Shown here: positions 838 to 14,928 of the stretch, piece after piece
Layout: the number at the start of each line of letters is the position of its first letter
Position numbering within the stretch: the first letter of the stretch is position 1
From: Rhodovarius crocodyli
Lineage (GTDB): Bacteria > Pseudomonadota > Alphaproteobacteria > Acetobacterales > Acetobacteraceae
Assembly (NCBI RefSeq): GCF_004005855.1
Contig: NZ_SACL01000001.1
Coordinates: 868,001 to 932,000 of the forward strand
Length of the DNA: 64,000 nt
Direction: 5' to 3'
Notes under the pieces: generated by a model
The model's input: the letters and a program-made list of their open reading frames with translations, nothing else
Told to the model about the DNA's origin: nothing
Database searches by the model: none
Program-made: the position numbers and the translations under genes

Positions 838-1755
838 TCACGGCAGCCCTGGCAGCAGCCGTTCCATTGTCGCCTCGGCCCTGAGCATCGCCGTGAACTC
901 CGTCACCGCGCGCGACCTGGGCTGTCCTGACGGGAACACCAGCGTCGCCGGGTAATCGATGCGCGGCTCGAACCGCCGCAGCGCGATGGCCGGGTCGCGC
1001 ACCGCGGTCACCGTGAACGGGTCCAGCAGCGCGATGCCGGCGCCCTGCCCCACCAGGCGGCACATCGCCTCGGCTGAGGTGCTTTCGGCCACTTCCCGCA
1101 CCACGGCGCCCGCCAGGCGCAGCATGGCGTCCAGCTTCACGGTGATGTGGCTGCCGGCGCCATGGTTCACCAGTTGCTGCTCGTGCAGGTCCTCGGGCCG
1201 GATCACCTTCTTCCGCGCCAGCGGATGGGCCGAGGGCATGACGCACACGGCATCCAGCTGCGGCAGGGCCTCGATATCCACGCCCGGGTAATCCAGCGGG
1301 GCATAGGCGATGCCGAGGTCGTATTGGCGCATCGCCACGCGCTCCAGCACGGTGGGCGCGATGTGGTTATGGAGCGCCACGAAGGTGTCCGGGTGTTCCT
1401 CGATGAAGCGCGCGATCAGGCGCGGCAGGATGCCATGGGCGGGGCCCGCCATGGCGATGATCCGCAGATTTCCGCGCCTGGCGCGCTTGATCTCGCCCGC
1501 TGTGTGCTCGATGCGGTCAAGGCCGAGGAAGCTGCGCTGAACCTCCTCATACAGCAGGTTGGCCTCCGCATTGGGCACGATGCCGGTGCCGCGCGGCTCG
1601 AACAGCTTCAGCTTCAGCACGTCCTGCAGGTCGCGCATCAGGCGGCTGACGGCGGGCTGGGTCAGGCCCAGCATCTCGGCGGCGCCGGAGATGGAGCCGC
1701 GCAGCATCACGCCGCGGAAAGCCTCGATCTGACGCTGGGTGATACGGCGTACCAT
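838..1755 (-). CDS. LysR-family transcriptional regulator
   Basis: 305-residue LysR regulator. The N-terminal winged helix-turn-helix is seen in residues ~4-62 (RQIEAFRGVMLRGSISGAAE, then TQPAVSRLMRDLQ), followed by a periplasmic-binding-like effector domain from ~90 to the end. The ATG at 1755 was chosen because the HTH begins only a few residues in. The same frame stays open far upstream, but that is antisense to the permease genes. It is divergent from the dppBCDF-type operon starting at 2128, so control of that operon is the simplest inference. The effector is unknown. The gene ends two bases from copy A of the hairpin repeat. Confidence 0.9.
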   Translation of the reverse strand: MVRRITQRQIEAFRGVMLRGSISGAAEMLGLTQPAVSRLMRDLQDVLKLKLFEPRGTGIVPNAEANLLYEEVQRSFLGLDRIEHTAGEIKRARRGNLRIIAMAGPAHGILPRLIARFIEEHPDTFVALHNHIAPTVLERVAMRQYDLGIAYAPLDYPGVDIEALPQLDAVCVMPSAHPLARKKVIRPEDLHEQQLVNHGAGSHITVKLDAMLRLAGAVVREVAESTSAEAMCRLVGQGAGIALLDPFTVTAVRDPAIALRRFEPRIDYPATLVFPSGQPRSRAVTEFTAMLRAEATMERLLPGLP

Positions 1756-2127: not shown

Positions 2128-3096
2128 ATGGGGACCGCCCGATACATCGCGAGACGCCTGATCTTCTCGCTCTGCCTCATCATCGGCGTCAGCATCATCC
2201 TGTTCACGATGATCAACGCCATCGGCAACCCGATCGAGGTGCTGCTGGCCGAACGGCCCGGCATCACGGAGGAAATGATCCAGGCCGTGACCGAGTATTA
2301 CGGCCTGCACGGCAGCGTGACGGACAGGTACTTCACCTGGATCTGGGCCTTGCTGCGCCTCGATTTCGGCACCTCCATCATCTACAACCTGCCCGTCTCC
2401 GAGATGCTCGTGACCTATGGGCTGGAGACGCTGAAGATCCAGGTGCCGGCCATCCTGATCGCGCTGTGCGTGTCGGTGCTGATCTCGGTGCTGGCGGCGA
2501 CGCGGCAGTACAGCCGGGTGGATTTCGGCGTCATCGCCGGCGCCATGGTGGGGCATTCGCTGCCGGGCTTCCTGCTCGGCATCATCCTGATCCTGGTGTT
2601 CTCCTACACGCTCGGCATCCTGCCCAGCTACGGCGCCTATTCCACGCGCAACCCGCTGTGGGGCAGCGATATGGCCGATGCGCTGTGGCACATGGTGCTG
2701 CCCGTCGGCATGCTGGTGTTCTTCAACTGCGCCACGCTGACGCTGCTGCTGAGATCCTCTCTGGTGGATGTGCTGCGGCAGGATTTCATCACCGCCGCGC
2801 GCGCCTCGGGCCTGCCGGAACGGCGGGTGGTGTTCGGCCATGCGCTGCGCAACGCCTTCATCCCGGTGCTGACCTATCTCGGCATCCTGTTCGGGCTGAT
2901 GCTGGGCACCGCCCCGGTGACGGAGACGGTGTTCACCTGGCCGGGCCTGGGCGCGCTGTACATCATGGCCATCCAGCAGCTGGATTATCCGCTGATCATG
3001 GGGGCCACGATGGTCATCACCGTGATGCTGGTGACGGCCACGCTGCTGACCGACATCGCCTATGTGGCGATCGACCCCCGCATCCGGCTGGGCTGA
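2128..3096 (+). CDS. ABC transporter permease, DppB/OppB type
   Basis: 322-residue inner-membrane permease of a peptide/nickel/opine-type importer, first of four contiguous transporter genes. There is an N-terminal membrane segment (RLIFSLCLIIGVSIILF), a periplasmic loop, then about five more segments. The cytoplasmic EAA-like coupling loop is around residues 225-245 (DFITAARASGLPERRVVFGHALRNA), which docks on the ATPases. The ATG at 2128 is the natural start, and the protein begins with the usual YIARRLI pattern. The second permease starts six bases after its stop. Substrate is not evident from the permease. Confidence 0.93.
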   Translation: MGTARYIARRLIFSLCLIIGVSIILFTMINAIGNPIEVLLAERPGITEEMIQAVTEYYGLHGSVTDRYFTWIWALLRLDFGTSIIYNLPVSEMLVTYGLETLKIQVPAILIALCVSVLISVLAATRQYSRVDFGVIAGAMVGHSLPGFLLGIILILVFSYTLGILPSYGAYSTRNPLWGSDMADALWHMVLPVGMLVFFNCATLTLLLRSSLVDVLRQDFITAARASGLPERRVVFGHALRNAFIPVLTYLGILFGLMLGTAPVTETVFTWPGLGALYIMAIQQLDYPLIMGATMVITVMLVTATLLTDIAYVAIDPRIRLG

Positions 3097-3101
3097 AGCA
3101 C

Positions 3102-4031
3102 ATGAGCGACGCAATCCTCGCCCCCACCGCCGCGCCGCCCCGCGCGCCCGGCATCTGGCGGCAGAGCTGGTACCGCTTCCGCCGCAACCGCGCGGGCATG
3201 ATCGGGCTGTGCATCGTCACGCTGGTGGTGCTGCTGGCGATCCTCGCGCCCTTCATCGCGCCCTATGTGCCCGATGATACCTCGGCCATGCTGCGGGGTG
3301 CCGCGCGCCGGCCGCCCAGCGCGCTGCATTGGCTGGGCACCGACCGCAACGGCTATGACGTGTTCACCCGCACCCTCTACGGCGCACGCACCGCGCTGAT
3401 GGTGGGGCTGGGGGCCATGCTCATCGCCTCCGTCATCGGGGTGCTGATCGGGGGCATCGCCGGCTTCTCCGGCGGGCTGGTGGACGAATTGCTGATGCGC
3501 TTCGCCGAGTTCTTCATGGTCATCCCGGTCTTCGTCGTGATCCTGGCCGTGGTGCGGCTGTTCGGCATCGTGGTGGTCGGCACCTGGATGGAGGACATCC
3601 CCAACCTCAACATGATGACCATCATCGTGCTGCTGGGCTGCTTCGAATGGCCGCCCATCGCCCGCATGGCGCGCGCGGAGTTCCTGCGGCTGCGCGGGGC
3701 CGAGTTCGTGGAGGCCGCGCACTGCATCGGTTCCTCCCGCCGCGACATCCTGCTGCGCCACATCCTGCCCAACGCCATGCCGCCGCTGATCGTGCTGGTC
3801 GCGCTCGGCATCGGCGGCGCGATCCTGGCCGAGACGATGGTCAGCTTCCTGGGCTTCGGGGACCCCAAGGCGGTGTCCTGGGGGCAGTCGCTGTTCTTCA
3901 ACTACGAGGCGCTGAAAGTGGCCCCCTGGGCCGTGCTCTCGCCGGGTGCGGCACTTTTCGTGACGGTGCTGGGCTTCAACCTGCTGGCGGATGGACTGAC
4001 CGATGCTTTCAACCCTCGCCTCCGCCAGTAG
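3102..4031 (+). CDS. ABC transporter permease, DppC/OppC type
   Basis: 309-residue partner permease forming the channel with the upstream DppB-like protein. A cytoplasmic N-terminus with WYRFRRNRAGMIGL leads into the first membrane segment. LGTDRNGYDVFTRTLYGARTAL is the family signature, and the coupling loop is around AEFVEAAHCIGSSRRDILLRHILPNAM. The frame is open 1 kb upstream, but the ATG at 3102 directly follows dppB and gives the normal family N-terminus. The 3' end overlaps the first ATPase gene by 29 bases, indicating translational coupling. Confidence 0.93.
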   Translation: MSDAILAPTAAPPRAPGIWRQSWYRFRRNRAGMIGLCIVTLVVLLAILAPFIAPYVPDDTSAMLRGAARRPPSALHWLGTDRNGYDVFTRTLYGARTALMVGLGAMLIASVIGVLIGGIAGFSGGLVDELLMRFAEFFMVIPVFVVILAVVRLFGIVVVGTWMEDIPNLNMMTIIVLLGCFEWPPIARMARAEFLRLRGAEFVEAAHCIGSSRRDILLRHILPNAMPPLIVLVALGIGGAILAETMVSFLGFGDPKAVSWGQSLFFNYEALKVAPWAVLSPGAALFVTVLGFNLLADGLTDAFNPRLRQ

Positions 4032-5046
4032 CCCGGTGACGGCCGCGCCCCCCGCCCCGCTGCTCGAGGTCCGTGACCTGCGCGTGCACTTCTTCGTCCG
4101 AGAGGGCGTGGTGCGCGCGGTGGACGGGGTGGATTTCCGCGTGAACCCCGGCGAGACGCTGGGCATCGTGGGTGAGTCGGGCTCCGGCAAGACGGTGTCC
4201 AGCATGTCCATCATGCGCCTCGTGCCCCCGCCCGCGCGCAATGTCGGCGGGCAGATCCTGTTCGAGGGCGAGGATTTGCTGGCGAAGACCCCCGATGAGA
4301 TGGAGGCTCTGCGCGGCCGTCGCATCGCGATGATCTTCCAGAATCCCGCGACCTCGCTGAACCCGATCTATTCCATCGGGGCCCAGCTGGGAGAGATCCT
4401 GCGCTGGCACCTCAAGCTCTCGCGCGCGGAGGCCGATGCGCGGGTGGTGGAACTGCTGACGCTGGTCGGCATCTCCGACCCCGCCACCAGGCTGCGGCAA
4501 TTCCCGCATGAGCTGTCGGGGGGGATGAAGCAGCGCGTGGGCATCGCGCGCGCGCTGCTGTGCAATCCGTCGCTGGTGCTGGCGGATGAACCCACCACCG
4601 CGCTGGACGTCACCATCCAGGCGCAGATCCTGGAATTGCTGGCCGATCTGCAGGCGCGGCTGAAGATGTCGATGGTGCTGGTCACGCACGACATGGGGGT
4701 GGTGGCGCGCATGGCCCACCGCATCACCGTGATGTACGCGGGCCGGGTGTGCGAAAGTGCCGATGCCGCGACCATCTTCAACGCGCCGCAGCACCCCTAT
4801 ACCCGCGCGCTGCTGGAAAGCATGCCGCGCATCGACCAGTCCTATACCGGGACGAAGCGCCAGCCCCTGCCGACCATCGCCGGTCGCCCGCCCAATCTGC
4901 TGAACCCGCCGCCGGGCTGCCGTTTCCACGATCGCTGCCCGGAAGCGAGTGCCGAATGCCGCCGACTGCTGCCGCTGGAAACCACCATCGCGCCGGGCCA
5001 CAGCGTGTCCTGCCTGAAGCGCGGCAGCGAGGGGATCGCGGCATGA
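4003..5046 (+). CDS. ABC transporter ATP-binding protein, DppD/OppD type
   Basis: 347-residue ATPase. Walker A GESGSGKT is at residues 57-64, the Q-loop in IFQNPATSLNP, the signature is [15 protein letters not shown], Walker B is VLADEPTTALD and the H-loop VTHD. The C-terminal oligopeptide/dipeptide (HPY) extension contains GCRFHDRCPEASAEC and a further Cys, the arrangement linked to an Fe-S cluster in some OppD proteins; this is a family inference only. It overlaps the preceding permease by 29 bases and the next ATPase by four (ATGA). Confidence 0.94.
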   Translation: MLSTLASASSPVTAAPPAPLLEVRDLRVHFFVREGVVRAVDGVDFRVNPGETLGIVGESGSGKTVSSMSIMRLVPPPARNVGGQILFEGEDLLAKTPDEMEALRGRRIAMIFQNPATSLNPIYSIGAQLGEILRWHLKLSRAEADARVVELLTLVGISDPATRLRQFPHELSGGMKQRVGIARALLCNPSLVLADEPTTALDVTIQAQILELLADLQARLKMSMVLVTHDMGVVARMAHRITVMYAGRVCESADAATIFNAPQHPYTRALLESMPRIDQSYTGTKRQPLPTIAGRPPNLLNPPPGCRFHDRCPEASAECRRLLPLETTIAPGHSVSCLKRGSEGIAA

Positions 5047-6026
5047 GCGCGCTGCTGGAAGTGGACGGCCTGTCCAAGCACTACCCGGTGTTCGAGCGCC
5101 GCCTGTTCCGCGCCGCGAAGCAGAGCGAGATCCGCGCCGTCGATGGTGTCTCCTTCACCGTGAACGAGGGCGAGACGCTGGGCCTGGTGGGTGAATCAGG
5201 CTGCGGCAAGACCACCACCGCGCGCTCCATCCTCAACCTCGTCACGCCGTCAGACGGCGCGGTGCGCTTCCGCGGCGAGGACATCGTGCCGGTGTTCAAG
5301 GGCAGCGACCGGGCGCGGATGCTGGAGATCAGGCGGTCCCTGCAATACGTGTTCCAGGACCCCTGGCTGTCGCTGAACCCGCGCTGGACCATCGGCGAGA
5401 CGCTGAAGGAACCGCTGCGCGTGCATCGGCCCGAAGCGCCCGAAAGCTGGGACGCCCGCGTGGCCGAACTGCTGCAGATGGTGGGGCTGGAGCCGCATCA
5501 CGCCTGGCGCTACCCACATGAATTCAGCGGCGGCCAGCGGCAGCGCGTGGGCATCGCACGTGCCCTGGCCATCGAGCCCAAGCTGCTGATCCTGGACGAG
5601 CCGGTGTCGTCGCTGGACGTATCGGTGCGCGCGCAGATCCTGAACCTGCTGGTGGAACTGCAGGACAGGCTCGGCCTCGCCTATCTCTATATTTCCCACG
5701 ACCTCAGCTCCGTCCGCTACATCAGCACCCATGTGGCGGTGATGTATCTGGGCAAGCTGGTCGAGATCGGGCCGGTGGACGACATCTTCACCCGCCCGCG
5801 CCACCACTACACCCGCGCTTTGCTCAGCGCGATTCCGGTGCCCTCGCCGGGTGAAGCGCAGGACCGCGTGGTGCTGAAGGGCGAGGTGCCGAGCGCGATG
5901 CGCCGGCCCGCCGGCTGCCCGTTCCACCCGCGCTGCGCGGCCGCCCTGCCCGTGTGCGCCACCGACGAACCCATGCTGATGCAGCCCTCCGCGCCGCATC
6001 GCGCCGCCTGCCACAACCCCGCCTGA
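5043..6026 (+). CDS. ABC transporter ATP-binding protein, DppF/OppF type
   Basis: 327-residue second ATPase of the importer. Walker [10 protein letters not shown]-loop [11 protein letters not shown], signature [15 protein letters not shown], Walker [13 protein letters not shown] and H-loop ISHD are all intact, followed by the C-terminal HPY extension (CPFHPRC). The ATG at 5043 overlaps the DppD stop as ATGA; the open frame upstream is antisense-free noise. It pairs with DppD as a heterodimeric motor, and the binding-protein gene starts 16 bases downstream. Confidence 0.94.
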
Positions 6027-6042
6027 TACGGAGACAGACCTG

Positions 6043-7773
6043 ATGCGACTGACCACCAAGCGCCGCGCCATGTTGCAGGCTTCGGCCGCCTCGCTCGTCA
6101 CCGCGGCGGTGGGCCCGGCAAGGGCCGCGCCGCCCTTCTTCCGCCTGTACCTGATGATCCCGAACAACCAGCCCGCGCGGATGATCTGGGGCACGCTGGC
6201 CGCCCAGCAGATGTCGCGCATCGGCATCGATGTGGTGTCGAGCTTCGTGCCCTTCACCGTCATCTCGCCGCGCCGGTCGCGCGGTGACGGCAAGCCGCAT
6301 GCCGAAGGCGGCTGGGACGCCTATCTAGAGCGCTACTACTACAACGCCATCCAGCCCACGCCGAACTCGCTGTTCCACAGCCGCCTCGCCCCGCCCTCGG
6401 GCCAGAACTTCTATTACGTGAACGACGCGCAGATCGACGACGCGCTGGACCGCATCGGCAACACCATCGACCCCGCCGGCCGCCAGGCCGCCTATCGCGA
6501 CTTCGCCAAGCGCTGGTACGACACGGAGCCGATGACGATCCTGTTCTACCCGAAGGACGTGATCGCGGTGAATCCGAAGCTGAAGGGCTTCGACACCACC
6601 ACCTTCAACCCGGTCTTCTTCCCCAACCCGGAAAGCTGGACGATCGAGGGCGCGGGCAATGACGCGACCGCCGCCTTCGCCAGCTGGGCGCCGCCCATGT
6701 CGCTGATCCCGATGTATTCGAACGGCTATTCGGACAGCAACATCTTCGGCCCCGTCTATAACCGCCTGTATGAGTATGAGAGCTGGGAGAACAAGCGCCT
6801 GCAGCCGGGCCTCGCGCTCAGCCACACCATGTCCGATGACGGCAAGCGCTGGGTGATCACGCTGCGCCCCAATGTGCGCTGGCATTCGGGCGAGGAATTC
6901 ACCGCCGAGGACGTGAAGTTCACCTGGGACACCATCCTCAACAAGGCCTATGGCGCGCCCATCTCCGCCACCGCCGAGCAGGTGCTGGGCAGCACAGAAA
7001 GCTACCGCGTGACCGGCAAGTACGAGATCACGGTCGAGCTGCCGAAATACGACATGCTGTTCCTCGACTGGCTGCTGGGCGCGCAGGCGATCATCCCCAA
7101 GCACGCCTATGAGCGCATCCCGCCCGCCTCCATGCGCGGCCATGTCGCCTCCACCTGGAACGGCCGCTACCAGGTGCCGATCTCGGGCGGGCGGAACTAC
7201 ACCGCGCTCGGCGGCGTGGGCACCGGGCCCTGGATCGCGCAGGGATATGACCCGCAGCGCCGCGCCTACAAGTTCGTGCGCAACGAGAATTACTGGAAGC
7301 CGCACACCGGCAATGTGAAGACCTTCTACGTGGTCAACATCCAGGGCACGGATTCCGTGCTGTCGGCCCTGCGTTCGGGCGCCATCGACGCGCATGACCC
7401 GATGTACGACATCGGCCCCCTGGCCGAGACGATCGAACCGAGCTGGGGCAAGGTGCAGACCTTCGACAGCTTCAAGTGGCAGCACATCTGCTACAACCTG
7501 CGCCACCCGGTCTTCGGCACCGGCGTAGATACCCCGCTCGGCCGGCAGGACCCTGCCCGCGCCGCCGAGGCCGCGGCCTATATCCGCAAGGCGATCAGCC
7601 ATGCCATGCCGCGCGAGCAGATCGTCAAGGAGATCGCGGGGGGGTATGGCGAACAGGGCACGGTGCCGCTTCCCTTCACCTCCGAGCAGTACGACCATGA
7701 CCTGCTCAAGCCGATCGAATACGACCTGGCGAAGTCCCGCGAATATCTGGAACGCGCCGGCTATCGCTACTGA
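6043..7773 (+). CDS. Circularly permuted SBP_bac_5-type (Dpp/Opp) substrate-binding protein
   Basis: 576-residue exported binding protein of the transporter. Residues 1-29 are a Tat-like signal (KRRAMLQA then an AxA site). After it the domain order is inverted. Residues ~31-203 match the usual C-terminal third of DppA-like proteins: PFFRLYLMIPNNQPARM, QMSRIGIDVV, IDDALDRI, and VNPKLKGFDTTTFNPVFFPN, which normally ends the protein. Residues ~211-576 match the usual N-terminal two thirds: FGPVYNRLYEYE, LQPGLALSHTMSDDGKRWVI, LRPNVRWHSGEEFTAEDVKF, GTGPWIAQGYD, then AAYIRKAISHAMPREQIV and EYDLAKSREYLERAGYRY at the stop. Rejoining the end (AGYRY) to residue 31 restores the standard fold order, with total length about normal. 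It is one uninterrupted frame. The alignment is by eye; the consequence for folding is inference. Confidence 0.88.
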   Translation: MRLTTKRRAMLQASAASLVTAAVGPARAAPPFFRLYLMIPNNQPARMIWGTLAAQQMSRIGIDVVSSFVPFTVISPRRSRGDGKPHAEGGWDAYLERYYYNAIQPTPNSLFHSRLAPPSGQNFYYVNDAQIDDALDRIGNTIDPAGRQAAYRDFAKRWYDTEPMTILFYPKDVIAVNPKLKGFDTTTFNPVFFPNPESWTIEGAGNDATAAFASWAPPMSLIPMYSNGYSDSNIFGPVYNRLYEYESWENKRLQPGLALSHTMSDDGKRWVITLRPNVRWHSGEEFTAEDVKFTWDTILNKAYGAPISATAEQVLGSTESYRVTGKYEITVELPKYDMLFLDWLLGAQAIIPKHAYERIPPASMRGHVASTWNGRYQVPISGGRNYTALGGVGTGPWIAQGYDPQRRAYKFVRNENYWKPHTGNVKTFYVVNIQGTDSVLSALRSGAIDAHDPMYDIGPLAETIEPSWGKVQTFDSFKWQHICYNLRHPVFGTGVDTPLGRQDPARAAEAAAYIRKAISHAMPREQIVKEIAGGYGEQGTVPLPFTSEQYDHDLLKPIEYDLAKSREYLERAGYRY

Positions 7774-7802: not shown

Positions 7803-9128
7803 ATGACCAGCCCGAAGCAGATCAGCCTCGGCCTTTCGATGCGCTATTTGGGGTATCACGCCGCCGCCTGGCGGCACCCCTCGGCGGACCCGGACGGTGC
7901 CTCCAAGCTCAGCCACTATCGCCGCGTGGCCGAAACGGCCGAGCGGGCCAAGATGGACATGGTGTTCCTGGCCGACGGCATCGGCCTGCGCACGCGTGAC
8001 GAGCCGGAGGGTGCGCTGCGGCGCTCCCACCAGGTGTTCGAGCTGGAGCCGCTGACGCTGCTCTCGGCGCTGTCCGCGGTGACGAAGAACATCGGCCTCG
8101 TCTCCACCGCCAGCACCACCTACAACGAGCCCTATCACCTGGCGCGGAAATTCGCCTCGCTGGATCACCTCAGCGGCGGGCGCGCGGGCTGGAATATCGT
8201 CACCTCCTGGTCCGAGGTGGAGGCGCGCAACTTCAACCGCGAAAAGCACATGGACTATGAGCTGCGCTATGAGCGCGCCTCCGAGTTCGTGGATGTGGTG
8301 AAGGGGCTGTGGGACAGCTGGGAGGAAGATGCGCCGGTCTTCGACAAGGAGAGCGGGATCATGCTCGACCAGTCGAAGATGCACACGCTGTTCCACAAGG
8401 GGAAGCACTTCCAGGTGGAAGGCCCGCTGACCATCAAGCGCACGCCGCAGGGCCGGCCGGTGCTGGTGCAGGCGGGTGCGGCGGAACAGGGCATGGAGAT
8501 CGCGGCGCAGCACGCCGACGTGGTCTATTCCATGACCTTCGACATCCCCACGGGCCGCAAATATTACGAGGACCTGAAAAGCCGCATGGCCAAGTACGGC
8601 CGTGAGCGGGACGAGCTGAAGATCATGCCCGGCCTGACCACCTTCGTGGGCCGCACCCGCGCCGAGGCGCAGGCGAAGTTCGACCAGCTGAACGACCTGG
8701 TCTCGCCGGAGCTGGGCCTATCCTACCTGTACCAGACGCTGGGCGACCTCAGCGCCTTCGACGTGGACGGGCCGGTGCCTGAGCCGCCGAACGCGACCAT
8801 CAAGAGCTCCGCCGGGCGGATGCTGGCGCTGGCGCGGGAGCGGAACCTGACGATCCGCCAGCTGTACCAGACCATCACGCCCGGCTTCGGCGTGCGCTAC
8901 GTGATCGGCACGCCGGCCGACATCGTGGACAACATGCAGGAATGGATCGAAGGCGGGGCCGCCGACGGGTTCAACCTGTGCCCGCCGGTGCTGCCGCTGG
9001 ACCTGGATGAGTTCGTGGAGCTGGTGCTGCCGGAAATGCGCCGGCGCGGGCTGTTCCGCACGGAGTATGCGGGGCCGACGCTGCGGGATCAGCTGGGGCT
9101 GGCCAAGCCGAAGAACAGGTATAGCTGA
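7803..9128 (+). CDS. LLM-class flavin-dependent monooxygenase (NtaA/SnaA/DszA family)
   Basis: 441-residue FMNH2-dependent monooxygenase, 29 bases after the binding-protein gene and likely its operon partner. Family segments run in order: LGYHAAAWRHP near the start, FLADGIGLR, STASTTYNEPYHLARKFASLD, SGGRAGWNIVTSWSEVEARNF, GPLTIKRTPQGRPVLVQAGAA, and a C-terminal GTPADIVDNMQEW. Such enzymes oxidise nitrilotriacetate, EDTA, sulfonates or sulfur heterocycles; which applies cannot be told. No flavin reductase gene is visible nearby. An ABC importer plus an NtaA/EmoA-type oxygenase recalls EDTA/NTA catabolic loci (inference). Confidence 0.92.
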   Translation: MTSPKQISLGLSMRYLGYHAAAWRHPSADPDGASKLSHYRRVAETAERAKMDMVFLADGIGLRTRDEPEGALRRSHQVFELEPLTLLSALSAVTKNIGLVSTASTTYNEPYHLARKFASLDHLSGGRAGWNIVTSWSEVEARNFNREKHMDYELRYERASEFVDVVKGLWDSWEEDAPVFDKESGIMLDQSKMHTLFHKGKHFQVEGPLTIKRTPQGRPVLVQAGAAEQGMEIAAQHADVVYSMTFDIPTGRKYYEDLKSRMAKYGRERDELKIMPGLTTFVGRTRAEAQAKFDQLNDLVSPELGLSYLYQTLGDLSAFDVDGPVPEPPNATIKSSAGRMLALARERNLTIRQLYQTITPGFGVRYVIGTPADIVDNMQEWIEGGAADGFNLCPPVLPLDLDEFVELVLPEMRRRGLFRTEYAGPTLRDQLGLAKPKNRYS

Positions 9129-9247: not shown

Positions 9248-10102
9248 TCACTCCCCCAGCCTTTTCCGCACCAGCGCCGAAAACGCCCTGGCTGCCGCGC
9301 TCTGATACCGCGACGGGCACCACAGCAGCGCCGCGCTGCGGATAGGCGGCGGGTCGCCGATGGCGCGGCAGTCCAGCCCGCCGCCCACCACGCTGCGCGA
9401 CGACAGCACCGTGCCCACCGCCCCGCTGCGCACCAGCGCCAGGATGGAGCCGATGGCGTCCACCTCCGCCACCACCTTCGGCACCCAGCGGCCCTTGAGT
9501 GCCGCGTCGATCATGCGGCGGGTGGCGAAGCGTTGCGGCAGCAGGGCCAGCGGGATCTCCTCGGGCGGGGCACCGGCCAGGGGGCTGCCCTCGGCGGTGA
9601 CCAGCACCAGCGCCTCATCGAACAGGCGCAGGCAGCCCAGCCCGGCCTGACCGGCCGGGGAAAAGGCCAGGCCCAGGTCCAGCTCGCCCTCCAGCAGCCC
9701 GGCCTCGATGTCGCGGGCGATCATCTCTCGTGCGTCCACGCGGATGTGGGGGTGGGCGGAAAGGAACTCCGCCACCAGCCCCGGCATCAGGTTGGCGTGG
9801 AAGGAATGAATGACGCCCAGGCGAAGGGTGCCGCTCTCGGCGCGCTCATGCTCGGCGATGGCGGCGCGGGCGGCGGCGGCCTCGTTCAGGATGCGGGCGG
9901 CGAAGCCGCGCAGCAGATGGCCGGTTTCCGTCAGGCGCAGGCCCCGGCCGGCGCGGTCGAACAGGGTGGTGCCCAGGCTGCGCTCCAGCGCGGCCAGGTG
10001 GTGGGAGAGCGTGGCCGGCGCCAGCCCCTGCGCGGCGGCGGCGCGGCCGAGATGCCCTTCCTCGGCAATCGCCTGGAACAGCTGGAGCTGGTGCAGATCC
10101 AT
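9248..10102 (-). CDS. LysR-family transcriptional regulator (probable regulator of catB-like gene)
   Basis: 284-residue LysR protein. The HTH is in residues ~2-60 (LHQLQLFQAIAEEGHLGRAA, ATLSHHLAALERSLG), the effector-binding domain from ~88. The ATG at 10102 was chosen over one 78 bases upstream because MDLHQLQLF is the normal family start. It is divergent from the muconate cycloisomerase-like gene at 10198, the usual arrangement for LysR control of cat-type genes. A palindromic T-N11-A box lies between them at 10123-10137. Confidence 0.9.
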   Translation of the reverse strand: MDLHQLQLFQAIAEEGHLGRAAAAQGLAPATLSHHLAALERSLGTTLFDRAGRGLRLTETGHLLRGFAARILNEAAAARAAIAEHERAESGTLRLGVIHSFHANLMPGLVAEFLSAHPHIRVDAREMIARDIEAGLLEGELDLGLAFSPAGQAGLGCLRLFDEALVLVTAEGSPLAGAPPEEIPLALLPQRFATRRMIDAALKGRWVPKVVAEVDAIGSILALVRSGAVGTVLSSRSVVGGGLDCRAIGDPPPIRSAALLWCPSRYQSAAARAFSALVRKRLGE

Positions 10103-10122
10103 TAGAAATCTTCGAACAATCC

Positions 10123-10137
10123 ATTCGCCAGGCGGAT
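10123..10137. promoter_or_regulatory. Candidate LysR operator (T-N11-A)
   Basis: ATTCGCC-A-GGCGGAT, an inverted repeat with one mismatch that contains T-N11-A (T10124, A10136). It lies 20 bases upstream of lysR and 60 upstream of the catB-like ATG, a position suited to divergent control and autoregulation. Confidence 0.5.
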
Positions 10138-10197
10138 ATTGATCGAACAGCGCGGCATGGCCAGTGTTTTCCGCAAGCAATCACGGAGGAACGGGCC

Positions 10198-11337
10198 ATG
10201 CTGCCCATCGAGCGCATCGAGGCGATCCCCGCCCGCGTGCCCACCATCCGCCCGCATCACCTGTCCTTCGCCACCGTGGATGCGATGGATGTGGTGATCG
10301 TGCGCGTCACCGCCGGCGGCATCGAGGGCTATGGCGAGGCCAGCACCATCGGCGGGCCGCGCTGGGGCGAGGAAAGCCCGGAGGGCATCGCGGCCATCGC
10401 CGGACACTATCTGGCAGAGGTAATGCTGGGCCAGGACGCCATGGCGCTGAACGCCGCCGAGGACCGCATCGCCCGCGCCGTGCGCGGCAACTACTTCGCC
10501 AAGGCAGCGCTGTGCATGGCGATCCATGACGTGGTGGCGCGGGCAAAGGGCATGCGGCTGGCCGACCTGCTGGGCGGCCCGCTTTCCACCGCCCTGCCCC
10601 TGGCCTGGACGCTGGCCAGCGGTGACACCGCGCGCGACATCGAGGAAGGCGAGCGCATGCTGGGCCTGCGCCGCCACCGTGACTTCAAGCTGAAGATCGG
10701 CGCCAAGGCGCCCGAGGTGGATGTGGCGCATGTCTCGGCCATCGCGCGGGCCTTCGCGGGGCGGGCCTCCATCCGGGTGGATGTGAACCAGGCCTGGGAT
10801 GAGCCCACCGCCGCGCGCTGGCTGCCGGCTTTGAGCGATGCGGGCGTGACCATGGCCGAGCAGCCGGTGGCGGGCTGGAACGTGCCCGCCATGGCCCGGC
10901 TGCAGCGCGCCAACCCGCGCCTGGCCATCATGGGTGACGAGGGCATTGCGACCCCACAGGACGCCCAGCGCCATGTGACGGAGGCCGCCTGCCACGCCGT
11001 GGCGCTGAAGCCCGCCAAGCATGGCGGCGTGGCCGGCACCCGCGCGGTGGCCGCCATCGCGCGCACGGCGGGGCTCGGCCTGTATGGCGGCACGATGCTG
11101 GAGGGGACGATCGGCACGCTGGCGTCCCTGCATCTGTATTCGACCTTGGGCGAATACGCCTGGGGCACGGAACTGTTCGGGCCGCTGCTGCTGCGCGACA
11201 GCCTGGCCACCACCGCGATCGAGGTGCGGGACTTCGCGATCCACCTGCCGGAGGGGCCGGGCATCGGCACCGGCCTGGATGCCGACAAGCTGGAGCATTT
11301 CCGCACCGACCGCCGCCGCACGCTGGTGCCGGCCTGA
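10198..11337 (+). CDS. catB: Muconate cycloisomerase-like enzyme (enolase superfamily, CatB-like)
   Basis: 379 residues, matching CatB over nearly its whole length: IERIEAI at the start, PTIRP, GEASTIGG, ESPEGI, WTLASGDTARDI, LRRHRDFKLKIGA, RVDVNQAWDE, YGGTMLEGTIGTLAS and WGTELFGPLLL. Enolase-superfamily catalytic residues are present: K164/K166 (KLK), metal ligands D195, E221 and D247, and K271. CatB cycloisomerises cis,cis-muconate to muconolactone in the ortho-cleavage branch of the beta-ketoadipate pathway. catA and catC are not in the window; instead a Bug binding protein follows, so a related substrate is possible. An AGGAGG-like site (CGGAGG) precedes the ATG. Confidence 0.85.
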   Translation: MLPIERIEAIPARVPTIRPHHLSFATVDAMDVVIVRVTAGGIEGYGEASTIGGPRWGEESPEGIAAIAGHYLAEVMLGQDAMALNAAEDRIARAVRGNYFAKAALCMAIHDVVARAKGMRLADLLGGPLSTALPLAWTLASGDTARDIEEGERMLGLRRHRDFKLKIGAKAPEVDVAHVSAIARAFAGRASIRVDVNQAWDEPTAARWLPALSDAGVTMAEQPVAGWNVPAMARLQRANPRLAIMGDEGIATPQDAQRHVTEAACHAVALKPAKHGGVAGTRAVAAIARTAGLGLYGGTMLEGTIGTLASLHLYSTLGEYAWGTELFGPLLLRDSLATTAIEVRDFAIHLPEGPGIGTGLDADKLEHFRTDRRRTLVPA

Positions 11338-11363
11338 ATTGCGTTAACGAGGAAACGAAAAGA

Positions 11364-12314
11364 ATGAACCGTCGCTCTCTGCTGGCCTTACCCGGACTGC
11401 TGGCTACCCCTGCCCTGGCGCAGAATTGGCCCACCCGGCCGCTGCGGCTGATCGTGCCCTTCCCGCCCGGCGGCGCCATCGATGCGATGACGCGGCTGCT
11501 GGCGCCGGCCATGGCCGATGCGCTGGGCCAGCCCTGCGTGGTGGAGAATCGCGGCGGCGCCGGCGGCACCATCGGCACGGAGGCCGCGGCGCGATCCGGT
11601 GACCAGGCGACGCTGCTCATGGTCTCCATGGCGCATGCGGTGAACCCGGCGCTGTACCCGCGCCTGCCCTATGACCCCGCCGACCTGGTGGCGGTGGCGC
11701 CGGTCGCGGTGGTGCCGAACCTGCTGGTGGTGCCGGCGGCCAGCCCGATCCGGGATGTGCGCGGGTTGATCGACGCTGCGAAGGCGCGGCCGGGGCAGAT
11801 TTCCTATGCCTCGGCGGGGAACGGCACGTCGATCCATCTGGCAGGCGCGCTGTTCTGCGCGAGCGCGCGGGTGGAGATGACGCATATCCCGTATCGCGGC
11901 TCGGGGCCGGCCATCGCGGATCTGCTGGCGGGGCGGGTGGACACGATGTTCGACAGCGTGACGTCCTCGGCACCGCATATCGCCAGCGGCCGGCTGCGGG
12001 TGCTGGCGGCGACGACCACACGGCGCGCCCAGGCGTATCCGGATTTGCCGACGGTGGCGGAGGCGGGGCTGCCCGGTTACGCGGTGGACCCGTGGTTCGC
12101 GATGCTGGCGCCGAAGGATTTGCCGGGAGCGGCGCGGGAGAAGGTGGAAGCGGCGGTGCTGGCGGCGATGCGGGATGGGGGGATTCGCGAGAAATTCGCG
12201 GGGATCGGGGCGGAGCCGATGGAAGGCGGCGCCGACAGCCTGCAGCGGCTGATCGAGGCGGAGACGGTGAAGTGGGGAACCGTGGTGCGGGAGGCGGGGA
12301 TCAGGGCGGATTGA
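11364..12314 (+). CDS. Bug-family (tripartite tricarboxylate transporter) substrate-binding protein
   Basis: 316-residue exported binding protein. The signal peptide (MNRRSLLALPGLLATPALAQ) is cleaved near residue 20. The Bug fold follows: RLIVPFPPGGAIDAMTR at ~29-45, GQPCVVENRGGAGG, an HIPYRGSGPAIADLL loop and DLPTVAEAGLPGY. Members bind carboxylates or aromatic acids in the periplasm. It starts 26 bases after the catB-like gene and is probably co-transcribed, so an aromatic-derived dicarboxylate is a plausible ligand. No TctA/TctB membrane partners are nearby. Confidence 0.92.
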   Translation: MNRRSLLALPGLLATPALAQNWPTRPLRLIVPFPPGGAIDAMTRLLAPAMADALGQPCVVENRGGAGGTIGTEAAARSGDQATLLMVSMAHAVNPALYPRLPYDPADLVAVAPVAVVPNLLVVPAASPIRDVRGLIDAAKARPGQISYASAGNGTSIHLAGALFCASARVEMTHIPYRGSGPAIADLLAGRVDTMFDSVTSSAPHIASGRLRVLAATTTRRAQAYPDLPTVAEAGLPGYAVDPWFAMLAPKDLPGAAREKVEAAVLAAMRDGGIREKFAGIGAEPMEGGADSLQRLIEAETVKWGTVVREAGIRAD

Positions 12315-12347
12315 TCCGCCCCCACCGCCACAAAACCATCACGACAC

Positions 12348-12382
12348 AAAAAAGCCCGGAGCATTCTAGAATGCTGCCGGGC
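12348..12382 (-). terminator. Intrinsic terminator of the tRNA-Ala transcript
   Basis: On the minus strand, a long hairpin with outer arms GCCCGG/CCGGGC (12382-12354) encloses the perfect 16-base palindrome AGCATTCTAGAATGCT (12360-12375) and is followed by six T. It lies 31 bases beyond the tRNA 3' end. Confidence 0.85.
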
Positions 12383-12412
12383 CGGCGGTGGCTCTCAAGC
12401 CATTGAAACACC

Positions 12413-12488
<76 letters not shown>

Positions 12489-12597
12489 ACCGGGTGTGGG
12501 CGGGCTAATAGCGCCCCCAGCGACACCCCGCAACCCCTTCCCCCCAACCTTTTGCGCATCTAGTTTGCAACGCAGAACAGCGTGAGGTTCCCGTCCG

Positions 12598-13308
12598 ATG
12601 GGCAAGGTCTATCCCGACGCCAAATCCGCCATGGCCGGCATCCTGCAGGATGGCCAGACAATCCTCTCCGGTGGCTTCGGCCTGTGCGGCATTCCGTCCG
12701 CACTGATCGACGCCATCGCCGCCTCAGGCGTGAAGGGGCTGACGGTCGTGTCCAACAATGCGGGCATCGACAATGAAGGGCTCGGCAAGCTGCTGCGCAC
12801 CCATCAGATCAGGAAGATGGTCGCGAGCTATGTCGGCGAGAACGGCGAGTTCGAGCGCCAGTATCTGGCGGGTGAGCTGGAGGTGGAGTTCAACCCGCAG
12901 GGCACGCTGGCCGAACGCTGCCGCGCCGGCGGCGCCGGCATCCCGGCCTTCTACACCAAGACCGGCGTCGGCACCGCGATCGCGGAGGGCAAGCCCACCG
13001 CCGTGTTCGATGGCGAGACCTATCTGCAGGAACGCGGCATCTTCGGTGACGTCGCCATCGTCCACGCCTGGAAGGGCGACACCGAGGGCAACCTGATCTA
13101 CCGGCACACCGCGCGGAACTTCAACCCGGTGATGGCCACCGCCGCGAAGATCACCGTGGCGCAGGTCGAGCACCTGGTGCCCGCCGGCACGCTGGACCCG
13201 GACAGCATCCACACCCCCGGCATCTTCATCAAGCGCATCGTGGAACTGCCCCAGGGCTACGAGAAGCTGATCGAGAAGCGCACCACCCGCAAGCGCGACG
13301 CGGCCTGA
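12598..13308 (+). CDS. scoA: 3-oxoacid CoA-transferase subunit A
   Basis: 236 residues. The glycine-rich CoA-transferase signature GGFGLCGIP is at ~26-34; SNNAG, SYVGENGEFERQYLAGELEVE, PQGTLAERCRAGGAGIPAFYT and NLIYRHTARNFNP follow. The SYVGEN segment favours succinyl-CoA:acetoacetate transferase (ScoA) over 3-oxoadipate transferase (PcaI), although a catB-like gene is nearby. Together with the next gene, 12 bases downstream, it transfers CoA from succinyl-CoA to acetoacetate, feeding ketone bodies into the TCA cycle. Confidence 0.92.
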   Translation: MGKVYPDAKSAMAGILQDGQTILSGGFGLCGIPSALIDAIAASGVKGLTVVSNNAGIDNEGLGKLLRTHQIRKMVASYVGENGEFERQYLAGELEVEFNPQGTLAERCRAGGAGIPAFYTKTGVGTAIAEGKPTAVFDGETYLQERGIFGDVAIVHAWKGDTEGNLIYRHTARNFNPVMATAAKITVAQVEHLVPAGTLDPDSIHTPGIFIKRIVELPQGYEKLIEKRTTRKRDAA

Positions 13309-13320
13309 GGAGAGACGACC

Positions 13321-13962
13321 ATGGCCTGGAATCGTGACCAGATGGCCGCCCGCGCGGCGCGTGAGCTGGAAGACGGCTTCTATGTGAACCTCGGCATCGG
13401 CATCCCGACGCTGGTGGCCAACCACATCCCCGACGGCATCTCCGTGCAGCTGCAGAGCGAGAACGGCATGCTGGGCATCGGCCCCTTCCCCTTCGAGGGC
13501 GAGGAAGATGCGGACCTGATCAACGCCGGCAAGCAGACCGTGTCGATGCTGCCGACCACCTCGATCTTCTCCTCCGCTGATTCCTTCGGGATGATCCGCG
13601 GCGGGCACATCGACCTGTCCATCCTGGGCGCGCTGCAGGTGGCCGAGAACGGCGACCTGGCGAACTGGATGGTGCCGGGCAAGATGGTGAAGGGCATGGG
13701 CGGCGCCATGGACCTGGTGGCCGGCGTGAAGCGCGTGATCGTGCTGATGGAACACACCGCCGGCGGCAAGCCCAAGCTGCTGAACAGCTGCACCCTGCCG
13801 CTGACCGGCCAGCGCGTGGTGGACACGCTGGTGACCGACCTCGGCTTCTTCACCATCGACAAGAAGGGCGACGGCGGCATCACGCTGATGGAGCTGGCCG
13901 ATGGCGTGACGGTGGATGAGGTGAAGGCCAAGACGGAAGCCCCCTTCAAGGTCGGCTTCTGA
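13321..13962 (+). CDS. scoB: 3-oxoacid CoA-transferase subunit B
   Basis: 213-residue catalytic subunit. [18 protein letters not shown] is followed by the SENGMLG motif, whose glutamate (E47) forms the glutamyl-CoA thioester intermediate. [14 protein letters not shown] and [21 protein letters not shown] are family hallmarks. RBS GAGG sits ahead of the ATG at 13321. Its stop abuts the stop of the convergent methyltransferase gene without a spacer. Confidence 0.94.
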
Positions 13963-14928
13963 TCAGCCCCGCGCTGCCGCGGCGATGACCGCATCCGCCA
14001 TCTCGCGGATGCAGTCATGGCGGCGGCAGACCAGATATTCGTCGATGTTGCGCCGCAGCCTGGCCACGCGCCGCCGCACCGGGCTGCCGGACAGCAGATA
14101 GGCGAGCGGCCGGGAGTCGCTGGTCACCAGCTGCCGCAGCCGCGCGGCCAGCGCGGCATCGGCGCCTGTCGGGGGCTCGTCATCCGGCCGCCATTTCCGC
14201 AGCACCAGAGAGGTGCCGCGGCCCTGCATCACCGTAAAGCCGCATCGCCAGGCCAGCAGCGCCAGGGTCTCCGGCGTGAAGTTCCAGATATGCGCGGTGT
14301 GGAACAGGTTGGCGGCCTGTTTCCGGGTGGCGGACAGGTCCGGCACCTCCAGGAACAGCAGCCCGTCCCCGGCGAGCCACCTATGGGCCAGGCGCAGCGC
14401 GCCCCAGGGGTCCGCCAGATGCTCCAGCACATGGTTCAGCGTGACCAGATCCAGGCTGCCCGGCATCACCTTCAGCGTCTCGAAGCCACCGCTCTCCACC
14501 TCGGCGCCATAGGTGCGGCGGGCGAATTCGGCATAGCCGAGATTGGGTTCGATGCCGCGCGCGCGGAACCCCATCCGGCCCATGACATGCACGAGCTCGC
14601 CGGAGGAAGCGCCGATATCCAGCACCCGCCCACCCGCCGGCAGCAGGGGCGCCAGCCGCGCGGCCCGGGCCAGCGCGCCGCGCACCGCCCGCAGCGCGTG
14701 CTTGCGCTTGGGCTCCCACCCGCCCTTGTAGTCCAGCCGGTAGCGCGTGGCGTAGAAGGCGGCCGTCTCCTCCGCGCTCGGCAGCGGGTGGTGGCTGACC
14801 AGCCCGCAGCCGGTGCACAGCACCGTGGTCAACGGCGTGAAGCCGCGGCCGCGCGTGGCCAGCACCTCTCGCTCGGTGCCGCCGCACAGGCGGCAGGGGG
14901 TGGTGGCGAATGGCGTGCCGGCGCGCAT
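13963..14928 (-). CDS. Class I SAM-dependent methyltransferase with N-terminal zinc-ribbon
   Basis: 321 residues. Two CxxC pairs near the start (CRLCGG and CTGCG) suggest a small zinc-binding region like that of C-methyltransferases of sugar pathways. Motif I is VLDIGASSGELVHVM (~96-110), motif II around IEPNLGYAEFA, motif IV LVTLNHVLEHLADPW. The ATG at 14928 follows AGGGAG at proper distance and is preferred over the upstream GTG. The substrate is unknown. No sugar or LPS genes flank it. Confidence 0.82.
   Translation of the reverse strand: MRAGTPFATTPCRLCGGTEREVLATRGRGFTPLTTVLCTGCGLVSHHPLPSAEETAAFYATRYRLDYKGGWEPKRKHALRAVRGALARAARLAPLLPAGGRVLDIGASSGELVHVMGRMGFRARGIEPNLGYAEFARRTYGAEVESGGFETLKVMPGSLDLVTLNHVLEHLADPWGALRLAHRWLAGDGLLFLEVPDLSATRKQAANLFHTAHIWNFTPETLALLAWRCGFTVMQGRGTSLVLRKWRPDDEPPTGADAALAARLRQLVTSDSRPLAYLLSGSPVRRRVARLRRNIDEYLVCRRHDCIREMADAVIAAAARG

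Follow-up and report, generated by a model that had tools for sequence, protein, structure and literature searches.

We are highly confident that the substrate-binding protein (SBP) encoded at 6043-7773 of the window, by which we mean the whole 64,000-nucleotide stretch of Rhodovarius crocodyli DNA analysed here, is a genuine natural circular permutant of a cluster C SBP, and probably a functional one. What is normally the C-terminal third of such a protein precedes what is normally its N-terminal two thirds. This order is conserved, the gene is under purifying selection, and genes for an ABC importer adjoin it. The protein is a member of a permuted lineage that includes Alphaproteobacteria, haloarchaea and one MAG labelled Desulfobacterales.

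Segment order of the binding protein

Binding proteins of the SBP_bac_5 family are very common in bacteria. The window SBP belongs to this family and is of the cluster C, DppA/OppA/NikA type, scoring 189.5 bits against the Pfam profile (PF00496; cut-off 32.4). SBP_bac_5 was the only Pfam model returned, and the NCBIfam models returned were solely for Opp/Dpp/Nik/Gsi-type SBPs; against the NCBIfam equivalogs (Opp4A, NikA, GsiB, DppA) the protein lay under the curated cut-offs, the best score being 106.2 bits against 650 (Opp4A). The Pfam match is confined to residues 253-574, or profile positions 2-278 of 368, and no co-linear match along the whole profile was obtained. The parts of the gene are as follows:

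6043..7773 (+), circularly permuted SBP_bac_5 binding protein, 576 aa (ORF, Pfam, phmmer, HMMs, rotation)
6043..6129 (+), putative signal peptide, residues 1-29, with twin-arginine-like TKRRAML (read from the sequence; RR pattern)
6136..6651 (+), canonical C-terminal third, residues ~32-203, now foremost (HMM match 33-188; residues 50-185 match AppA 377-504)
6607..6678 (+), junction of the matched halves, residues 189-212 (24 residues), leading from the old C-end to the old N-end
6679..7764 (+), canonical N-terminal two thirds, residues 213-574, ending at an AGY motif (Pfam, HMM; AppA 22-345)

With phmmer, the protein matched Bacillus subtilis AppA (1xoc) in three stretches in permuted order: residues 224-365 with AppA chain residues 34-173, 514-575 with 283-345, and 50-185 with 377-504. 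A profile of 13 permuted proteins matched AppA in two separate stretches, 210-577 with chain 22-345 and then 33-192 with chain 358-506; the cut therefore lies within AppA residues 346-357. Likewise, HMMs trained solely on unpermuted proteins assigned residues 33-188 to the C-terminal third and residues 213-574 to the N-terminal part (numbered from the ATG, with the 21 preceding codons of the stop-to-stop frame subtracted). The initial annotation, made from the sequence alone, had put these parts at ~31-203 and ~211-576 of an intact frame of near-normal length, with a short junction linking the old ends, and had proposed a natural circular permutation. Pfam, phmmer, the unpermuted-trained HMMs and rotation of the sequence all agree with that proposal, the frame is open throughout its 576 codons, and 24 residues separate the matched halves.

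We compared the native protein with a version rotated to normal order, using a full-length profile built from 18 unpermuted proteins. The best single alignment scored 180.5 bits and covered 65% of the profile before rotation, against 228.4 bits and 96% after it, which excludes a chance origin of the permuted match. Hence the profile check that had been suggested at the outset gave no full-length co-linear match natively and one after rotation. The same rotation lifted the score of all 50 permuted proteins, by a median of 51 bits and in the weakest case by 0.6, and their median coverage rose from 0.65 to 0.95. The opposite rotation lowered the score of all 28 held-out normal proteins (median -88.5), with a gain in none. 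The best Pfam stretch ended at profile positions 284-309 in 8/8 far permuted relatives and at 363-365 in 2/2 normal proteins.

We classified segment order with HMMs for each half trained on 35 unpermuted proteins, themselves picked with permuted-family halves. Among 97 frames of at least 420 aa with an N-part match in the collected loci, the C-terminal third was in front in 50, behind in 46 and ambiguous in none; the remaining frame has no C match because the locus end cuts it. The figure of 50/97 is not a prevalence, as near-copies are included and the frames were gathered using permuted queries. With an earlier pair of HMMs, built from permuted proteins, 13 frames had lacked a C match, and the unpermuted-trained set superseded that pair.

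The best PDB matches of the window SBP, by sequence and by Foldseek, were the cluster C proteins AppA, DppA, NikA, NikZ and GsiB. Chain order was normal in all seven alignments examined from the phmmer and family-profile searches of the PDB, and no chain was co-linear across the junction among the best 60 of 64 phmmer matches and the best 60 of 111 family-profile matches. AlphaFold2 gave a poor model with 14 close orthologues in the alignment (mean pLDDT 54.1, pTM 0.53) and a better one when one further orthologue and twelve fragments of six unpermuted loci were added (mean pLDDT 81.5, pTM 0.81); the fragments were aligned to the matching halves, so the better model is not independent of the sequence assignment. 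With that model, the best 50 of 161 Foldseek matches (E ≤0.001) were all SBPs of the cluster C fold, headed by AppA (E 1.2e-14, query TM 0.47, 391 columns). Aligned columns numbered at most 420 among the matches listed. Foldseek is a sequential aligner, expected to match a permuted chain only in part, and the partial coverage of the predicted model is consistent with permutation without being proof of it. The protein would be expected to adopt the usual fold of the family, which has two lobes, three domains and a two-strand hinge, and to function in transport.

Gene neighbourhood and candidate ligand

The genes that accompany the SBP gene are as follows:

838..1755 (-), divergent LysR-like regulator upstream of the transporter genes (labelled by eye; matches in orthologue loci)
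2128..3096 (+), DppB/OppB-type permease (PF00528; NCBIfam Opp B models)
3099..4031 (+), DppC/OppC-type permease (PF00528, PF12911)
4003..5046 (+), DppD/OppD-type ATPase (PF00005, PF08352; NCBIfam)
5043..6026 (+), DppF/OppF-type ATPase (PF00005, PF08352; NCBIfam)
7803..9128 (+), NtaA/DmoA family FMN-dependent monooxygenase, 441 aa (TIGR03860, 546.4 bits against 279.7; PF00296)

The two permeases and two oligo_HPY ATPases at 2128-6026 make up a linked importer directly upstream of the SBP gene, with a 16-base gap after the DppF-type gene. This bears out, with Pfam and NCBIfam models, the initial view that a complete dppBCDF-type gene set is served by a single binding protein. All four importer genes are present in 17 of the 19 close orthologue loci, and 15 of the 19 have the order B-C-D-F-SBP on one strand. 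The set is inverted in L018 and differently ordered in L038; only D and F were seen in L012, which is cut by a contig end, and only a weak F match in L019. In some orthologue loci, a gap of ~1 kb separates F from the SBP gene.

An NtaA/DmoA-type monooxygenase gene (TIGR03860) lies downstream in 13/19 close orthologue loci; none was found in the stretch examined of L019-L023, and L018 ends too early. This gene also adjoins the window SBP gene, and for that reason the ligand may well be a small organic nitrogen or sulfur compound that the monooxygenase would oxidise, which is no more than a reasonable guess, with a parallel in the EDTA system of Chelativorans. In Chelativorans sp. BNC1, the EDTA-binding protein EppA is reported to be encoded in an operon with importer genes and enzymes that include the FMNH2-dependent monooxygenase EmoA, and this combination of cluster C SBP, importer and monooxygenase serves EDTA uptake and breakdown (PMC7312458). 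Like the window SBP, EppA is a cluster C protein with adjoining importer and FMN-type monooxygenase genes, but its domains are reported in normal order, with Domain I at 27-256 and Domain III at 303-530 (PMC7312458).

The window SBP has NAIQPTPN where a Nitratireductor protein has RPERSDPD (alignment columns 151-190, partly gapped). In DppA, an aspartate in the C-terminal third holds the peptide amine. The difference between the two motifs would fit a non-peptide ligand.

Other genes in the window were also noted. A second NtaA/DmoA-like LLM monooxygenase gene (1-445, -) is cut by the start of the window and points away from the transporter genes, and a similar gene lies at the edges of L009, L011 and L025. 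Beyond the SBP locus are a LysR gene (9248-10180, -), a muconate/chloromuconate-type cycloisomerase gene (10198-11337; TIGR02534), a gene for a Bug-type binding protein look-alike with no NCBIfam match (11364-12314) and two genes labelled by eye as CoA-transferase subunits (12598-13308 and 13321-13962). The region 9248-14000 is probably a separate aromatic-degradation unit.

Conservation among close orthologues

A scan of GTDB contigs yielded 22 loci, comprising 17 co-linear orthologues (60-95% identity) and five unpermuted far relatives. The orthologue matches start at residues 1-32 of the window SBP and end at residue 576, and all four importer genes are nearby in 15 of the 17 contigs. Sources include Rhodovarius, Neoroseomonas, Plastoroseomonas, Belnapia, Paracraurococcus, Paeniroseomonas, Roseomonas, Reyranella, Bosea, Microvirga, a Rubritepida MAG and a MAG labelled Desulfobacterales, among others. 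The gene on the latter (L019:6004-7695) is a permuted orthologue, 66% identical, on a MAG chromosome without an adjoining BCDF set; either it has moved horizontally or the MAG is mislabelled.

A close orthologue was found in 7 of 147 relatives, including the window's own genome; some of the other six are probably the same species. In draws of 385 genomes from across the class and 200 from across the phylum (the latter with the family profile), the only positive was in each case the window's own genome, with at most three and at most six candidates, respectively, scored per genome, so that misses are possible. The distribution of close orthologues is thus patchy. A close permuted orthologue is also carried by two complete plasmids. 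The check for orthologues with the same order, which the initial annotation had called for, was therefore answered by 17 further contigs and by 6 other genomes of the 147, and with so many independent records an assembly error is excluded as the source of the order. Comparison with seven close orthologues gave dN/dS values of 0.09-0.40 that are alike in the signal, C-terminal third, junction and N-terminal part, and the gene is under purifying selection.

A wider lineage of permuted proteins

Far relatives in Alphaproteobacteria and haloarchaea, at 22-25% identity, share both the order and the breakpoint, a breadth that goes beyond what was seen from the window alone. A tblastn search of plasmids with the window SBP (E 1e-8) returned 212 records, 13 of them covered at 80% or more; two of the 13 are close and 11 are far relatives (22-25% identity). 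Most far plasmid matches are unbroken and span either nearly all of the permuted length or its last five sixths. Coverage of at least 80% was reached in 42 of 91 plasmid records with a Nitratireductor query, and in 24 of 292 and 18 of 774 with two haloarchaeal queries (at different E limits). The family profile found one-piece matches across the junction in at least nine of 60 relatives (at least 11 genes); in a tenth genome (G012), the match covers profile positions 13-259 and lies at a contig end.

Far members classed as permuted by the HMMs come from Nitratireductor (two), Microvirga ossetica, Neorhizobium EC2-8, Ketogulonicigenium, Roseomonas haemaphysalidis and Maritalea among the bacteria, and from 11 haloarchaeal loci (L041, L042, L074, L075 and L078-L084). 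Viral contigs contributed three loci, two of them on one contig; L092 is unpermuted and the L102 ORF seems so by eye. One permuted SBP gene (L048:1510-2868, genome G026) has a single in-frame TGA within the match and is possibly decayed.

Neighbours of the far clade are often BCDF genes together with genes for M28 or M20 peptidases, hydantoinase/oxoprolinase, creatininase or racemase, and because of these neighbours we infer that the far clade probably imports peptides or cyclic amides. For two haloarchaeal permuted SBP genes (L080:2800-4707 and L082:2737-4533), the annotated neighbours in the stretch examined include neither an ABC permease nor an ABC ATPase; each has an arylsulfotransferase gene nearby and is followed directly by a gene for a phosphatase PAP2 or an inositol phosphorylceramide synthase.

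A lipobox-like LAGC or IAGC, sought as a simple pattern, precedes the C-terminal third in 8 of 11 haloarchaeal permuted frames and in none of the other 26 among the 37 permuted frames tabulated.

Breakpoint and number of origins

We tabulated the junction and protein end for 37 of the 50 permuted frames. In these frames, the N-part match ends at an AGY-like motif and the protein stops 1-42 residues later; in the window clade the end comes 1-3 residues past the match, and in the others mostly later. The junction between the matched parts is 24 residues in the window SBP and 19-76 across the 37 frames, being longest where the C match stops early. Since the normal protein ends account for part of this junction, little sequence would have been added there.

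What route could lead to such a gene? The simplest would be tandem duplication of an ancestral binding-protein gene and loss of sequence from the two outer ends, which would link the old termini through the short junction and open new ones in the second lobe, just past the helix that carries AGY at its end. In the present gene, the signal peptide precedes the old C-terminal third. The polypeptide would still fold as the usual two-lobed trap, holding the ligand between the lobes and handing it to the BCDF importer encoded just upstream. The permuted arrangement is inherited along the lineage. Two candidate traces of this route were considered and rejected. At L093:3872-7610 (genome G028), two SBP frames follow each other on the same strand, one unpermuted and the other permuted, but each contains both halves and they differ in order, so we do not regard them as a duplication intermediate. 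No hydrophobic stretch that could be a signal-peptide remnant was seen by eye in the junctions of the 37 frames.

For phylogenetic analysis, we aligned each half of 77 proteins (35 of them permuted) on its own and concatenated the two alignments in normal order. We omitted 15 locus ids, which were near-copies apart from one broken or cut frame, and four extra ORFs; searches were short and branches are long. The free tree places the window clade of 13 (support 100) apart from the other 22 permuted proteins (support 97), implying two changes of state. The branch to the window clade is 1.96 changes per column long, and two changes were still found after a further 12 long rows were dropped (65 left). 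Constraining all 35 permuted proteins to one group lowered the likelihood of the joined-halves tree by 0.61, and this grouping was not rejected (p-AU 0.482). Free short searches with the N-part or the C-terminal third alone also gave two changes; the constrained tree was better by 40.1 (p-AU 0.941) and 15.5 (p-AU 0.827), respectively. The DppB partner, analysed in 57 rows with near-copies and three doubtful frames omitted, behaved similarly: the free tree has two changes, with 22 far operons (support 100) and 10 window-type operons (support 99), and the constrained tree was better by 8.9 (p-AU 0.705).

Together, these comparisons lead us to favour a single origin of the permuted SBPs, while falling short of proof. 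A possible though unlikely alternative is two or more separate permutations at one tolerant site, of which one occurred in the window clade and at least one other in the clade that holds Nitratireductor and the haloarchaea. The two state changes in the free SBP and permease B trees, which separate the two groups, the identity of only 22-25% between them and the different distance of the protein end from the N-part match would all fit repeated origin. However, joint grouping is compatible with the joined halves and has the better likelihood for the N-part, the C-terminal third and permease B taken separately, and the breakpoint falls at the same AGY-like motif in both groups.

It is improbable that the gene is instead a chimera, in which a C-terminal fragment of one SBP gene was placed ahead of an N-terminal fragment of another. 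Segment order alone fits a chimera as well as a permutation, and tandem SBP genes do exist, as the unpermuted gene beside a permuted one in L093 illustrates. Against this, the two halves analysed separately give the same picture: each has the window clade at a support of 100 and allows the permuted proteins to form a single group. Rotation also brings back a single full-length match to which both halves contribute score. Nevertheless, close paralogues fused into a chimera would give the same result. That the gene is an assembly error or a dead, rearranged gene is highly improbable, as no point was found in its favour and it is contradicted by the same order on 17 further contigs and two complete plasmids, by dN/dS of 0.09-0.40 in the four parts and by intact frames.

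Discussion

The window SBP is a variant of cluster C and not an ordinary member, because it reaches the SBP_bac_5 family score, lacks a co-linear match along the full profile and regains that match on rotation. It is homologous to AppA (1xoc), DppA (1dpp), NikA, NikZ and GsiB/YliB over both parts and is encoded beside the same type of importer genes. It differs from these proteins in that its segments are permuted, with new termini after the AGY helix. As the initial annotation proposed, the new termini would lie inside one lobe, judging from the cut at AppA 346-357 set beside Domain III of the related EppA, which is reported to span Ser303-Leu530 (PMC7312458).

Natural circular permutation has been reported for another ABC binding protein. 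Treponema pallidum Tp0684 (MglB-2) is reported to be naturally permuted, and its authors propose a Type Ic, or Cluster Bc, for it; they describe binding of a ligand and suggest that tethering to the membrane may explain the permutation (PMC4990184). Like the window SBP, Tp0684 is a permuted ABC binding protein retained in a wider lineage; unlike it, Tp0684 has a Type I (cluster B) sugar-binding fold and is permuted in the N lobe (PMC4990184). Pfam and NCBIfam searches found no similarity of the window SBP to the Type I (cluster B) sugar-binding family, so it does not belong to Type Ic. Open-access PMC full text yielded no permuted cluster C structure or paper, in agreement with the initial statement that no natural permutation had been described in the SBP_bac_5 family; a prior report elsewhere is possible.

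What is the functional significance of the permuted order? If the haloarchaeal proteins with a lipobox-like motif are lipoproteins, their anchor would sit on the lobe that holds the new termini. We give roughly even chances to the following broader proposal: a single ancient permutation founded a class of cluster C SBPs ("cluster Cc" by analogy), which was passed down together with its permease partner and has moved between bacteria and archaea, and in the lipid-anchored haloarchaeal members the anchor is on the opposite lobe, so that tethering and the encounter with the importer would be unlike those of all known relatives.

Current annotation hides the permutation, as those permuted genes of this set that have annotated records are labelled simply as ABC transporter or peptide/nickel substrate-binding proteins. 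Pipelines that require sequential alignment, whether of profiles or of structures, would miss about a third of these proteins. For the design of biosensors, the family offers a naturally tolerated break and join point in the cluster C fold. Moreover, the conservation of the permutation across bacteria and archaea provides a ready-made test of how chain order and the position of the termini matter for folding, hinge motion, lipid tethering and importer docking.
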